Below, one piece after another: positions 31,205 through 36,131 of a DNA stretch of 64,000 bases. Position numbers and translations under genes: made by a program. This DNA comes from Paenibacillus faecalis (lineage in GTDB: Bacteria; Bacillota; Bacilli; Paenibacillales; Paenibacillaceae). Numbering within the stretch: the stretch's first letter is position 1; each line of letters starts with the position of its first letter. The stretch is taken from NCBI RefSeq assembly GCF_900289175.1, contig NZ_LT985747.1, positions 3,441,624 through 3,505,623 of the forward strand, read 5' to 3'. The notes under the pieces are model-generated. The model saw nothing but the letters and a program-made list of their open reading frames with translations. It had not been told where the DNA came from and did not search any database.

Positions 31205-31253
31205 GGTTTACAATGTTAAACGAGCTTTAAAGTGAGATAAAGCCATAAAAAAA

Positions 31254-31282
31254 CGGACTGCCTGTTTGACACAAGCAATCCG
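31254..31282 (-). terminator. Rho-independent terminator of the erm gene
   Basis: On minus CGGATTGCTTG pairs with CAGGCAGTCCG, followed by TTTTTTT. It stands about 50 bases after the methyltransferase stop. Confidence 0.85.
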
Positions 31283-31334
31283 CTATATTACACGTCTCTT
31301 ATCTCAAGGCCTTTCATGCTGTCTAACTGGGATG

Positions 31335-32174
31335 TTATCGCCTTCGTAATCTTGGCCATCGATGTGACTCCACATGTTGGATCATGGAAAGAAAAACTTC
31401 TCCCCATTGGTGCTCATTCAGCGTACATATAGCTGCGTTCCTATCCAGCTTTAAGGCTCTCGTCATTTTCGTAATCTGTGGAGATGAGAATACATTCCCC
31501 AATGCTGCCGAAATTGGCAGCCGAGGATCGCGCAAGGCATGAACTGCGAGTGCCATAAATTTAGCATGTTCCCGCGGGGGAAGCACCGGGTTTTTCTTTT
31601 TGCGGATGACCAGTACAGCAGATTCCACGCTCGGACGAGGTGAAAAATGTTCCGGCGAAACAGTCCGTACAATCTTCATGTCGAACCACATTCTCCATTT
31701 CAGAATACGGGGATCTTTGACCGATACCGATGTAAACCTCTTGGCTGCCCCTTTCTCAACGATGAGAACAGCGCACTTTAGAGGAACGCCCGGATAACTG
31801 AGCAGCTTATCAAGGATCGGCGTTGTAATGGAAAACGGTATGTTCGATACGATCACAAACGGCTCTCTTGGAAGATTGATCTGCAAAAAGTCTGATTGTC
31901 TTACCTGTACATTCGATATGTCTTTTGTCTTCCGGGCAAGCTTTTCAGCATAAACAGGATCGTTCTCGACCGCCAGCACCTTCTTGGATTTCTCAGCTAA
32001 AGGCAAGGTGATCGCACCAGTACCAGCACCAATATCCATAACGGTATCGTTCGAGTTTATATGGGCAAGCCGGATCATCTCCTGGACCAGCGGCTTATGG
32101 ATTAACAGATGCTGCGAAGAAAAGTTCGGCGATTGCGCAAACTTTACTCCACGATTTTTTTTATTTTTAAACAC
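31335..32174 (-). CDS. erm: ErmD-like 23S rRNA (adenine-N6) dimethyltransferase
   Basis: A 279-residue methyltransferase expected to dimethylate A2058 of 23S rRNA, conferring macrolide-lincosamide-streptogramin B resistance. Motif I is DIGAGTGAITLPLAE, motif IV is SNIPFSITTPIL; EKGAAKRFTS, WRMWFD and EHFSPRPSVESAV are as in the ErmD/J/K class, which shares SPNFSxQHL at the N-terminus and HxWPR at the C-terminus. The start is GTG at 32172-32174 (GAGGTG 7 bases upstream). Expression is probably controlled by the upstream leader peptide and attenuator. It stands alone, which fits an intrinsic chromosomal gene. Confidence 0.9.
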   Translation of the reverse strand: MFKNKKNRGVKFAQSPNFSSQHLLIHKPLVQEMIRLAHINSNDTVMDIGAGTGAITLPLAEKSKKVLAVENDPVYAEKLARKTKDISNVQVRQSDFLQINLPREPFVIVSNIPFSITTPILDKLLSYPGVPLKCAVLIVEKGAAKRFTSVSVKDPRILKWRMWFDMKIVRTVSPEHFSPRPSVESAVLVIRKKKNPVLPPREHAKFMALAVHALRDPRLPISAALGNVFSSPQITKMTRALKLDRNAAICTLNEHQWGEVFLSMIQHVESHRWPRLRRR

Positions 32175-32181
32175 AAAAAAA

Positions 32182-32280
32182 CACCTCATTCATTCGTATA
32201 TGAGAGAATGAAAAAGGCACAGAGCAAATAAACCCGGTTCATATCATAAAAAATGAACGGATATCAATGTTCTGTACCTT
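32182..32280 (-). promoter_or_regulatory. Attenuator leader of the erm gene
   Basis: Between the leader peptide and erm, the arms CTGTACCTT (32272-32280) and AAGGCACAG (32214-32222) pair at 8 of 9 positions plus a wobble, and the minus-strand 3' arm ends in TTTTT, so it looks like a transcription terminator. A hairpin (TGAACGG 32254-32260 with CCGGTTCA 32234-32241) nests inside it. A short stem (32190-32195/32206-32211) stands next to the erm GAGGTG ribosome binding site. The stop of the leader peptide is 4 bases before the 5' arm. Confidence 0.75.
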
Positions 32281-32283
32281 ACA

Positions 32284-32316
32284 CTATCTCAATCGAATAA
32301 ATGCGATGCAATACAT
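32284..32316 (-). CDS. erm leader peptide MYCIAFIRLR
   Basis: A 10-codon ORF preceded by GGAGG (32327-32331) 10 bases before its ATG. It ends Arg-Leu-Arg-stop. The R-x-R (+x+) motif is the known macrolide-dependent stalling motif of the ErmD leader class, which matches the class of the downstream enzyme. A ribosome stalled at the last codons would cover the 5' arm of the attenuator at 32272-32280. Confidence 0.8.
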   Translation of the reverse strand: MYCIAFIRLR

Positions 32317-32569
32317 ACACTCAAAGCCTCCATCCATATAAGGTGAGGTTAGTTTGGAAAACTACAAAAAACAGTATAACAAACCATTGATGTAAAAGGA
32401 ACTATTTCTGTCAAGAAGCAGAATTCAAGCCGTTTACGCAATACTTTCATTGTTTTTTCACAAATTTATCCGATCCCTGCTAAATTGCCGAAACTTTCCC
32501 TTCGCCCAAAGCGTCTTAATAAGTGAGGAAAATTATAACATCGATTCTTTAATGAAGGGGGTAAGGCGC

Positions 32570-35500
32570 GTGAGGAAATTTTGGGCTGCTATGCTAACAG
32601 CTCTACTTATTTTTCCTATGATATTCCAATCACAGGCGCAAGCAGCAGTAAAAATTAACATCTTGATTGACGGGGTAAGATTAAAAACGAAACAGGCTCC
32701 AATTATGGTGCAAAACCGTGTCATGCTGCCAATGAGGGCTATTTTTGAAGAGTTAGATGCGAAAGTGACATGGAATCAGAAGACGAAAACAGTCACCGCA
32801 GTCAGAGATGACACAAAAATCGTTCTAAAAACCAATTCCAAAACCGCTAAAATTAACAACAGGAACGTCAAACTTGATGTTCCAGCCAAAAACCTAAGAG
32901 GCACAACAATGGTACCGGTACGCTTTGTTAGTGAAGCCTTGGGTGAAAAGGTCGGATGGAATTCCAAAACAAAAACAGTATCGATTACAACCACTTCGGA
33001 CCGTGGAACAGTACCTGGCTACGGGATCTCCCCTGTCTCTTATGTTAACGCAAGAGATGTGGCCAACAACGGGGACGGACGCGATCTTCAGATCAGTTTC
33101 GCCAAGTCATACACAGAACCAAGTGTAGCACAATACCGGGTGATGATCGTGAAGGCATCGAGAGCATATGCTTTTAACCCTTCAACAGCGCGCATGGTTC
33201 AACCATCCAATTATTCTGTTGTCTTTCCAAATGGAACCGATCCATCCATAACATTAAACTCCAGCTCCCGAGACGTAGATGGGGATTATATTCGTGAAAA
33301 CCAGGCGTATAAAGCTTACGTACTGGCTGTTGGAAGAACAAACGGTGTATACGCGCTATCTTCCCCTTCACCAAACATTACATTGGCAAACACCAACGCT
33401 GTTGAGCCAGCTACTAATGTGAAGGCGAGCGATATTAACGATTACCGCGACGGGCGAGACCTTTCAGTAAGCTTCACCCGTGCACAAAGAGAAGATCTGA
33501 TCTCTAACTACAGAGTTATGGTTGTTAAGACGAAAGATGCAGGCAAATTTGATCTGGCGGCAGCCAAATCATTACCAAGCCAAAATTACACGACAGTATA
33601 CAAAACAAGTAGCAGCAATTCGACGCTAGCTACTACACTGAACTCATCTTCCCGTGATACTTCCGGGGAATATATAAGAAATGGTGTTCCTTATACTCTG
33701 TTCGTGATGTCTGTCAGCAACAATGAGAACATGTTAGCAAGTAAACTGTCTTCTGCTTCACCTTCGATCACACTTGGAACAGGATCTGCTAATTCTCCGG
33801 TCATCACTCAAGTGAGAGATGTGAGCGACTATGGGGACGGACGCGATCTGCGTGTAGATTTCACCAAAATGTCTGATGAATCACGTATCGGATCTTATCG
33901 GATTTTTGTTGTAAAGTCATCGGACTACCATAATTTTAATTTGAACCGAGCGAATTCAGTAAGCAGTTATAATTACACACAAGTGAGCAAGACAGGAAAT
34001 AATATTAGCTACAACTTATCCTCCGGAGCAAGAGACGTGGACGGAGCATTGATACGAAAACGGAGTTAATTACCGTGTGTTCGTCATGCCTGTTATTGTG
34101 GGCAGTAATTACGGCGATGTTCTCTCTTCCGCTTCAAGTGATATTATGCTAACGAATTACAACAACTCGTATGTCGGCTCTGTCTCCAGTCTTTATGTAA
34201 GGGACGTTGGCGATTACGGGAATGGTCGGGATCTGCAAGTCTCATTTAAACGTCCATCGAATGAATACAACATCAGCCATTACCGCGCATTCGTGGTCAA
34301 GTCGCACAAAGCGAATAACTTTGATATATACGATGCAAACAAGTTGTCCAGCTACTATTCCACAGACATTTATAAAACAGGGGGTAATACAGTTACCCAG
34401 AGTTTGTCATCCAGCAGTCGGGATACAGATGGGGACCCTATAAGGGATGGTGTCAGCTACCGGGTATTTATTATGTCGGTCGGCTACGGGAACTATTCTG
34501 GCAACAACGTACTGTCATCATCTTCTAGCATCATTACACTTAGCAATAATCATAAAGTTGATCCGGTAACCCAAGTGACGGTTACTGATGTAAATGATCT
34601 TAATGACGGTAGGGATTTGATGGTATCTTTCAGAAGACCTGCGGATTATTACAATATTGATCATTACCGAATTTTCGTTGTTAAAGCAAACGATCCTTAT
34701 ACATTTGATTTATCGAGAGCTAAATCAATAAGAAATGACAAGTATACCTATGTAAGCAGCAAATCTGACAGCACAATCTCACTGACACTTGATTCCAATG
34801 CTAAGGATATCGATGGAGACAAAGTTAAGAATGGTACTGATTACCGTGTGTATGTGATGTCTGTTGGCGGAAGCAGTTACGCAGGAAGCTCTGATCTATC
34901 CCCTTCATCCAAAATCATAAAGCTGGAAAGTAATTCTCCGGTCAAATCGGTTACAGGCTTAAAGGTAATTGATGACGGAGACAGAAATGACGGTAGAGAT
35001 ATGCTTATATCTTTTAATAAATTAGACGATGAGGATAGCATCAGTCATTATCAAATATACGTAGTGAAATCGGGAAGGAATTTCGATCTCGAGCTTGCAA
35101 ATAAAAAAGATAACTATACACATGTTCCTAAAAAAGGAACTGACATCAGTATCAGCTTATCTTACAACGCAACAGATATTGACAATGAAGAAATCAAAAA
35201 TTCCATAGATTATGATGTATATGTTCTCTCGGTTAGCAAAGATGGAAATCCAAATAACAATGCATTATCTGAAGCGGCACCTATCACGCTCAAAGGTAGT
35301 GAAATCACGGCTCCTTCGATTGTAGAAGCGAAGATTGATGAGAATAAGACAGGATTTGATATAACTTTTGAGAAGCCAAAAAAATCGGAAAATGTGAAAG
35401 AATATCGCGTCATGGTAGTACCTTCCGATGACACAAATCCTTTTGAAGTGAAAGATGCAAGCGATGTACCCGCAAATTATTATAAAAGAGTAGGACCCGA

Positions 35501-36131
35501 TGCTGCTGAACTAAAAGTGAACATCCAATTAGGTTCTAAAGATGCTAAGGGAAATAGCATAGTCACAAACACAAAATACAAGGTATACGTTTTGGCTGTT
35601 AACAATGGCCAGGGTGCTGGTGGAGACGCCCTTTCCAATCATGCAATAGTTGAAATTAAAGATCCTACAACTGAAACAGAACCAAATCCTTTGGCAGCAT
35701 CAAGTGTAAAAGTAGAATACATTCAAAAGACTAATAACTTGGAAGTAAGCTTTATACCTTCCAAGGATTCCAGCATTGTTTCGTATCAAGTCATGTTTAT
35801 TTTGGAAAGTGATGCTGATAGCTTCACTCTAGAAAAAACTTCTTCTTCTAAAACAGCTAATAACTTAACTTCGATGGAACTGACACAAGTCAAAGAAGAT
35901 GTAAAAGATAAGACAGATACTGAAACGGATAAACTTGTTAAGTATACAGTAGAAATGCCAAACAAGGATGTATACGGACAACAAATACAATCAGGCAAAA
36001 AATATAAAGCGCGCATCCTAAGTGTTGTAAACAAGGCGGATAAACTTACTGAGGTTGTAGCCGTATCAAAACCATCAAATGCTGTAGTTTTGAAACCTGC
36101 TGATCCCGCTACACAAACGATTTCAAAATGA
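32570..36131 (+). pseudogene. Frameshifted secreted stalk-domain protein with ~128-residue repeats
   Basis: Intact it would be about 1187 residues. A GTG start at 32570 follows AAGGGGG by 7 bases. A signal peptide (KFWAAMLTALLIFPMIFQSQAQA) leads to a copper-amine-oxidase-N (stalk) domain at about 25-145. About eight FN3-like repeats follow, the first six marked by a (G/N)DGRDL-type motif every ~385 bases, with the later motif YRxFVVKS and RDxDGxxIRNGVxYRVFVMSV. The reading stops at 34069 because 34057-34060 reads AAAA; removing one A restores RNGVNYRVFV and joins the frame that runs to 36131. It may be phase variation, decay or a sequencing error. No SLH or LPXTG anchor was seen. Confidence 0.85.

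Follow-up and report, generated by a model that had tools for sequence, protein, structure and literature searches.

A probable tlrB-type dual attenuator before a chromosomal erm gene of Paenibacillus faecalis, and its likely sharing among five gene families linked to macrolide resistance

A stretch of 64,000 nucleotides (nt) from Paenibacillus faecalis (contig NZ_LT985747.1; hereafter the window, to whose positions all coordinates refer) carries on its minus strand an erm gene preceded by a leader RNA that very probably acts as a dual attenuator of the type described for tlrB of Bacillus subtilis. The computation supports homology of this RNA to tlrB-type leaders, conservation of an R-x-R motif and of its spacing, and two pairings, one forming a terminator-like hairpin and the other joining codons of the leader peptide to the region of the erm Shine-Dalgarno sequence. 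Because the leader codons can pair with that sequence, control is probably both transcriptional and translational; the stalling, termination, pausing and induction, as well as the identity of the inducing macrolides, are what we infer. In addition, a single macrolide-sensing leader RNA has probably been handed on, as homologous copies, between genes of at least five unrelated families in Bacilli (Erm, RlmA, Mph, macrolide esterase and Mef/MFS), constituting a drug-responsive regulon without a regulator protein that serves up to three families per genome, with some classes keeping the start-site switch and lacking the terminator.

The initial annotation of the window had noticed a 10-residue open reading frame (ORF) ending in R-L-R, with a GGAGG site of its own, followed by a hairpin that ends in a T-run, and both features hold (Table 1). 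The leader ORF is borne out by the sequence and its type is kept at 29 of 71 related erm loci, while the folding energy of the 146-nt leader RNA is -47.6 kcal/mol, compared with an average of -28.8 for shuffled sequences, none of 200 shuffles being as low. Arms B and C of the hairpin could form 10 base pairs, one of them G-U. Leader and arm had been placed correctly, but the gap between leader stop and arm is 3 bases and not the 4 that had been claimed, and the ability of the leader codons to pair with the erm Shine-Dalgarno sequence had not been part of that description. The hairpin is not listed by a pattern-based terminator scan, whose loop limit is 8 nt compared with the loop of about 47 nt found here, and no Rfam match reached its gathering score in the leader region, the best hit of a relaxed search being mir-577 (30.3 bits versus 100). 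A chance origin of the arrangement is opposed by the fold, by its conservation and by the specificity of the model matches described below.

An erm match at 1e-40 or better was present in 65 of 394 genomes of the family, at 72 places, and the upstream regions of 71 of these were scanned (the place in genome G263 being left out). According to our own sorting, the short leader type precedes 29 of the 71 loci, the window's included, with peptides of the form CIAFIR[LI]R and variants in 25 and MITH[YF]MRLR in four. The 42 remaining loci comprise seven ErmD-like peptides (MTHSMRLRFPTLNR and kin), eight resembling MVDQxIRVR, 15 resembling MGVINxxRLRFxxL and 12 unsorted loci, in some of which R-x-R peptides are visible (e.g., L063 and L068). 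The stall motif is R-L-R or R-I-R in 28 of the 29 short leaders and R-I-W in one (L020), and it closes the peptide or is followed by at most two further residues. All 29 leaders have 16-18 nt between the first Arg codon and the GG of the hairpin, while the distance from the stop codon to the hairpin varies from 3 to 8, which suggests that the stalled ribosome, rather than the stop codon, sets the measure. The sequences TATTTG and CCTTTTT are invariant across the same leaders. The R-I-W of L020 is a natural variant in an otherwise conserved erm leader, MFCIAYIRIW, and a mef-type copy of the element (L246) ends in R-L-W. Leader peptides of a similar kind lacking R-x-R (e.g., MVDQSN and MINDRLNRRELNN) occur at erm loci L052, L058, L061, L062 and L055-L057, which are perhaps decayed or differently controlled.

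The known system closest to this arrangement is tlrB (yxjB), which encodes the RlmA(II) G748 methyltransferase and has a 177-nt leader with nine codons ending in R-Y-R (PMC6851288). Its hairpin terminates transcription in vitro, stimulated by NusA, and a structure sequestering the Shine-Dalgarno sequence was mapped with RNase T1. Tylosin stops the ribosome when the P site holds the Tyr codon of R-Y-R, an Ala-Tyr-Ala mutant nearly loses induction, and a NusG-dependent pause requires the T-tract just before the terminator (PMC6851288). The window leader resembles it in having a short peptide ending in R-x-R (within the wider pattern R/K-x-R/K) directly before a terminator-like hairpin, a T-rich tract shortly before the terminator, a similar length, a leader region predicted to hide the downstream Shine-Dalgarno sequence, and in that no overlapping antiterminator was found in it. 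The likeness extends to homology, as judged by a covariance model and by alignment to leaders with the same peptide as tlrB. By analogy, the T-run and the TTTATTT tract may serve NusA-stimulated termination and a NusG-dependent pause, respectively. The two differ in the controlled gene, an Erm instead of RlmA(II), and in the peptide, MYCIAFIRLR instead of MIIQFIRYR. The window leader would thus act in the manner of the tlrB leader, with which it appears to share descent, without constituting a tlrB operon.

The covariance model, R1, was built solely from the 29 short erm leaders, and its E-values are rough. It finds leaders of RlmA-family genes, including those with MIIQFIRYR, the B. subtilis tlrB peptide, and erm and rlmA leaders share stretches outside the leader ORF (e.g., GGGTTTATTTG and CTGTGCCTTTTTCATT) as well as sequence outside the paired arms. 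At an E-value of 0.01, matches were present in 150 of the 394 family genomes and in 60 of 398 class genomes, the latter being a draw from a larger group. The set examined consisted of the 180 listed forward-strand places beyond the 29 training loci, opposite-strand matches having been dropped, with downstream genes identified against six reference proteins. These genes were RlmA (135 places), macrolide esterase (15), Mph (12), Erm (six), Mef/MFS (five) and Erm together with RlmA (two), such that 175 of the 180 listed matches precede genes, some of them broken, of five unrelated families linked to macrolide resistance. The other five (L142, L265 and L291-L293, the last three at E-values of 0.003-0.009) lack a recognised resistance gene; among them, L265 is a strong match (E 1.5e-8) without R-x-R leader that looks decayed.

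Representative proteins, 10 in each search, were compared with NCBIfam and Pfam. Both esterases passed the macrolide-esterase cut-off and all three RlmA proteins that of the Pfam RlmA domain, whereas the Mph and Mef proteins fell below the narrow cut-offs of their own models and above the wider Pfam APH and MFS cut-offs; for L258, one of the five MFS proteins, no macrolide-specific model matched in this check. Judging from their leader, the RlmA proteins are presumably RlmA(II), like TlrB. The 12 Mph-like loci (L253, L256, L257, L260, L261, L268-L272, L281 and L284) carry the leader type, with peptides such as MRGIAFMRLR, and the 15 esterase-like loci (L209, L232, L249, L263, L273-L276, L278, L280, L282, L286, L287, L289 and L290) a MIIKFIRLR or MIIQFIRLR leader. 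A run of five Ts occurs in 35 of 37 erm, 116 of 132 rlmA and six of 15 esterase copies, and in none of the 12 mph or five mef copies.

The element precedes at least two gene classes in 36 of 166 tabulated genomes, and three classes in two of these 36; 18 of the 29 training genomes also carry it before rlmA. At L118 an erm directly followed by rlmA stands behind the element, at L116 pieces of erm alone remain between element and rlmA, and at L150 an erm-like stretch was seen by eye between the element and a Mef-like gene, although the protein comparison listed no Erm match there. Such loci suggest that the switch changes owner as the first gene decays. In the literature searched, which was mainly open access and did not extend to the PMC6851288 supplement with its 180 tlrB leader peptides, no paper linked the attenuator of tlrB to genes of the erm, mph, mef or esterase classes, and in the available main text of a study of Gram-positive macrolide esterases (PMC12704417) the strings 'leader', 'attenuat' and 'regulat' are absent. 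Within that literature the leader RNA is described for tlrB alone, and a single attenuator serving all five families is not reported.

The families could also have arrived at the same design independently, under the same demands for an R-x-R, a stop, a hairpin and a Shine-Dalgarno sequence, rather than by descent from one element. Every user would need drug-dependent stalling, the lower stem differs in sequence in the mph copies and in many esterase copies, and the roughness of the R1 E-values leaves convergence some room. The loop sequence GGGTTTATTTG is nonetheless common to the classes and demanded by no pairing, even if it could be kept as a pause site, and R1 finds almost exclusively loci of the five families while missing the other R-x-R erm leaders tested. 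We regard convergence as unlikely, and common descent of the leader RNA as the better account. If this is correct, one sensor switches rRNA methylation by two enzymes as well as phosphorylation, hydrolysis and efflux of macrolides, and can be traced as an evolutionary unit apart from the genes it serves. Because the peptide differs by gene class (MYCIAFIRLR, MIIQFIRYR, MRGIAFMRLR, MITHFMRLR), the family would amount to a natural experiment relating nascent-peptide sequence to the macrolide sensed. The RNA model would also offer a means of finding inducible macrolide-resistance genes, the erm of the window being one clear member.

The second pairing, between leader codons (arm A) and the erm Shine-Dalgarno region (arm E), is present in the fold of the full leader and was examined in several ways. 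In the window, the duplex has an energy of -22.1 kcal/mol, while 1000 synonymous recodings of the leader average -11.7 and a fraction of 0.005 of them is as good; among 19 distinct leaders this fraction was 0.015 or less in 14 and between 0.042 and 0.113 in the other five. Taking a fraction of 0.05 or less as codon bias toward Shine-Dalgarno pairing, the bias was found in 28 of 35 erm and 95 of 126 rlmA leaders, compared with three of 200 in a control window, and in seven of 10 mph and three of five mef leaders; among esterase leaders the evidence is weak (three of 14). When arms were swapped between leaders, the mean energy went from -21.4 kcal/mol for native pairs to -18.6 for swapped ones, and the observed interaction was not reached in any of 20,000 permutations, a test that leaves the relatedness among leaders in. 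Four of the 19 leaders (L018, L019, L038 and L053) pair natively more weakly than the same leader arm does on average with foreign partners, and three (L016, L021 and L044) more weakly than the same downstream arm with foreign leaders.

Pairs were counted in alignments of 29 erm leaders (28 distinct), where 91.4% of cells are paired, and of 102 leaders (alignment A3), where 87.9% are paired and slid controls reach at most 56.1%. In the latter, cells changed on both sides number 43, compared with 19.1 in shuffles, none of 500 of which reached that value, and 82.2% of the leader helix and 97.8% of the terminator helix are paired. Alignment A3 consists of 33 erm and 69 rlmA leaders, the rlmA rows being 70 drawn at random from 116 distinct ones with L262 then dropped. 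The T-run pattern failed for the mph leaders, for four of five in the mef class and seven of 15 in the esterase class, and for some leaders of rlmA and erm. Leaders of the mph, mef and esterase classes were left out of A3, and the covariation count therefore rests on erm and rlmA leaders. A further alignment (A2) mixed in opposite-strand matches and was set aside; the element (32313-32166) is near-palindromic, and R1 also matches its opposite strand, at 42.9 bits. Taken together, pairing, codon bias and pair counts predict that the leader region sequesters the Shine-Dalgarno sequence. Since the codon bias persists in mph and mef copies, where the T-run is missing, the start-site switch may be more general than the terminator, which would have been added or lost in some classes.

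These results bear on the view that the element is a pure transcription attenuator of the ermD/ermK kind, in which the stalled ribosome would prevent the terminator only and the pairing of leader and Shine-Dalgarno region would be a by-product. In line with that view, the terminator helix is almost completely paired and shows two-sided changes at three of its nine pairs, CCTTTTT is invariant, and R-L-R is the motif of ErmDL (PMC8298421). Against it, the leader codons are biased toward Shine-Dalgarno pairing, and the mph copies keep this bias without a five-T run; furthermore, R1 misses the ErmD leader and 33 other erm loci. Pure transcription attenuation therefore seems quite improbable.

For the dual attenuator that we favour, the following sequence of events can be proposed. 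In the absence of drug, the ribosome would complete the 10-codon leader, arms B and C would form the hairpin and most transcripts would end at the T-run; in those that escape, arm A would pair with arm E, hiding the erm start site. With macrolide bound, the ribosome would stall when Leu9 occupies the P site and Arg10 the A site, a predicted position for which ErmDL (PMC8298421) and the TlrB leader (PMC6851288) provide the analogy. It would then cover the leader codons and the GG at the hairpin base, and read-through and erm translation would both rise, the TTTATTT tract probably acting as a NusG-dependent pause during which the ribosome can load. That a stalled ribosome would cover the hairpin base had already been suggested in the initial annotation, and it finds support in the tylosin-dependent stop at the matching place of the homologous tlrB leader (PMC6851288). 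In agreement with this, masking a ribosome stalled at the middle R-x-R codon lowered the mean pairing of the outer terminator pairs from 0.98 to 0.01 in the 29 leaders.

Several results weigh against this scheme. The same masking barely changes the Shine-Dalgarno stretch (from 0.15 to 0.24 in the 29 leaders), and equilibrium folding gives no clean release of the erm start site. In 17 leaders, placing the ribosome edge at +10 or +12 raises the unpaired value of the Shine-Dalgarno sequence from 0.15 to 0.35 or 0.33, respectively, while the hairpin persists. Edges of +14 or beyond open the hairpin, but CCTTTTTCATT then captures the Shine-Dalgarno sequence, whose unpaired value is 0.18 to 0.07, so that one effect rules out the other. 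For the leader of the window itself, the Shine-Dalgarno sequence opens slightly at every edge (0.29-0.38 versus 0.21). In the alignment of 102 leaders, two of five covariation measures are unremarkable (two-sided-change pairs, reached in 58 of 500 shuffles, and further pair types, in 49 of 500), as is one measure in the 29 leaders (277 of 500), and some columns of the leader helix are unpaired in many rows, e.g., in 74 of 102. RNAalifold, run on the 29, kept the outer five leader-helix pairs only and drew a hairpin between the T-run region and the Shine-Dalgarno region, a competing pairing that is real in sequence terms. The T-run has five Ts only. Moreover, erythromycin may fail to induce this erm, since the available sections of the tlrB study report no erythromycin stop on that leader (PMC6851288). 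As the same study supports both outputs for tlrB, timing during transcription or the exact position of the ribosome edge may matter.

The edge results could instead be taken to indicate pure translational attenuation of an ermC-like kind, with no termination and with a hairpin whose only role would be to keep the leader arm close to the Shine-Dalgarno arm and which would persist through the stall. Edges of +10 to +12 do keep the hairpin and leave the Shine-Dalgarno sequence more open (0.15 to 0.35), and a short T-run, missing altogether in the mph copies, would be understandable. This is difficult to reconcile with the five-T runs of most erm and rlmA copies and with the in vitro, NusA-enhanced termination at the homologous tlrB hairpin (PMC6851288), and we give this explanation as little credence as pure transcription attenuation. 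In the dual attenuator, both the terminator and the start site would respond to the stalled ribosome.

The ermD class, to which the gene had been assigned in the initial annotation, does not accommodate it. The ermD/ermK system of Bacillus licheniformis and the window share the R-L-R motif and a leader peptide before an Erm. At the ErmD locus of that species (L297), the peptide is MTHSMRLRFPTLNQ, with R-L-R inside, it lies about 300 nt or more before the gene, and several T-run hairpins stand between; the window has no MTHSMRLRFPTLNQ-related peptide and no long multi-terminator leader. R1, run with default filters, gave no match at E<1 in any of 34 loci, namely the ErmD locus and 33 of the 42 erm loci that lack the short leader; the best hit, at E 2.3, lay elsewhere in its locus. 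In a tree of 80 proteins (78 Erms of the searched genomes, one open piece, <183 amino acids, of a plasmid ErmD and a KsgA-like outgroup), a single clade (support 0.859) holds all 36 Erms that have the short leader, and ErmD falls outside it, with the loci of MTHSMRLR type; the best match of the window Erm in a plasmid collection is an ErmD, at 44.2% identity. In this sample, leader type follows Erm descent. For ErmDL, R-L-R is needed with telithromycin and dispensable with erythromycin, and the context before the motif matters for both (PMC8298421), so that the outcome of mutating R-L-R would depend on the drug.

The ermC leader has an IFVI-type peptide and operates by an exchange of small hairpins. 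The window leader differs from it in that the leader codons can themselves pair with the Shine-Dalgarno region, around the terminator-like hairpin. In ermC, a leader ribosome stalled by the drug frees a hidden Shine-Dalgarno sequence (PMC10219788, PMC8116656), and the window leader is predicted to resemble it in this respect.

Table 1. Features of the erm gene and its leader in the window.
Feature	Position	Strand	Basis and remarks
Probable extended -10 promoter element TGTTATACT	32373..32381	-	Sequence; TATACT or similar at the same place in several relatives; no score from the promoter scan
Leader Shine-Dalgarno GGAGG	32327..32331	-	Sequence and relatives; 10 nt to leader ATG 32316
Leader ORF MYCIAFIRLR-stop, 10 codons	32284..32316	-	ATG 32316, TAG 32286-32284
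Arm A, leader codons complementary to erm Shine-Dalgarno region	32294..32309	-	Folding, recoding, pair counts; extension to 32287
Arm B AAGGTACAGA, 5' arm of terminator-like hairpin	32271..32280	-	Starts 3 nt after leader stop
Apical hairpin within terminator loop	32232..32262	-	Fold; same place as the tlrB pause hairpin (PMC6851288)
Conserved T-rich tract TTTATTT	32226..32232	-	Place of the tlrB NusG-dependent pause region; putative function
Arm C TCTGTGCCTT, 3' arm of terminator-like hairpin	32214..32223	-	Folding and pair counts
T-run of terminator-like hairpin	32211..32215	-	Two of its Ts inside the stem
CCTTTTTCATT	32207..32217	-	Could pair with erm Shine-Dalgarno region; alternative off-state
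Arm E, including erm Shine-Dalgarno GAGGTG 32187-32182	32181..32196	-	Sequence, fold, pair counts
erm, Erm-family rRNA adenine methyltransferase, 279 amino acids, GTG start	31335..32174	-	NF000499 and PF00398
Intrinsic-terminator-like site after erm	31252..31284	-	Terminator scan; two sites in region, 1.3 expected from shuffles

The Erm protein scores 231.2 bits with the broad curated model NF000499 (cut-off 212), while it stays below the cut-off of every named Erm class model listed; methylation of A2058 and resistance are its predicted functions. The gene start is better read as GTG 32174 than as ATG 32189, because GAGGTG lies 7 nt upstream of the former and relatives share this layout. The chromosomal place that had been proposed for erm is borne out, as the genome comprises two contigs and the gene sits on the large one (4.83 Mb). 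The claim that it is intrinsic stands in part. Among seven relatives whose loci (3.8-6.8 kb) were compared, the TetR gene beside erm is kept in the closest (L008) and the GNAT gene lies near erm in another (L001), the other five having no neighbour gene in common with the window erm. A comparable erm (at least 219 bits) occurs in 24 of 100 genomes of the genus, where the next-best matches score no higher than 77 bits and probably represent other methyltransferases, KsgA among them. The shared neighbours speak for an older chromosomal position in the nearest lineage; across the genus, the gene has a patchy distribution.

The genome's own rlmA homologue lies about 11 kb beyond the window, and the idea of a leader common to it and erm was discarded, as this homologue has no such leader; R1 found the erm element alone in this genome, on both strands. 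About 3 kb downstream of erm, a flavin mononucleotide (FMN) riboswitch (RF00050, 115.9 bits) is located at 28152-28000 on the minus strand. Divergent from the erm leader, two adjacent plus-strand ORFs with the same kind of repeat, 32450-34069 (539 amino acids) and 34077-36131 (684 amino acids), are separated by 7 bases and have the appearance of a single long repeat protein interrupted by a stop or a frameshift.
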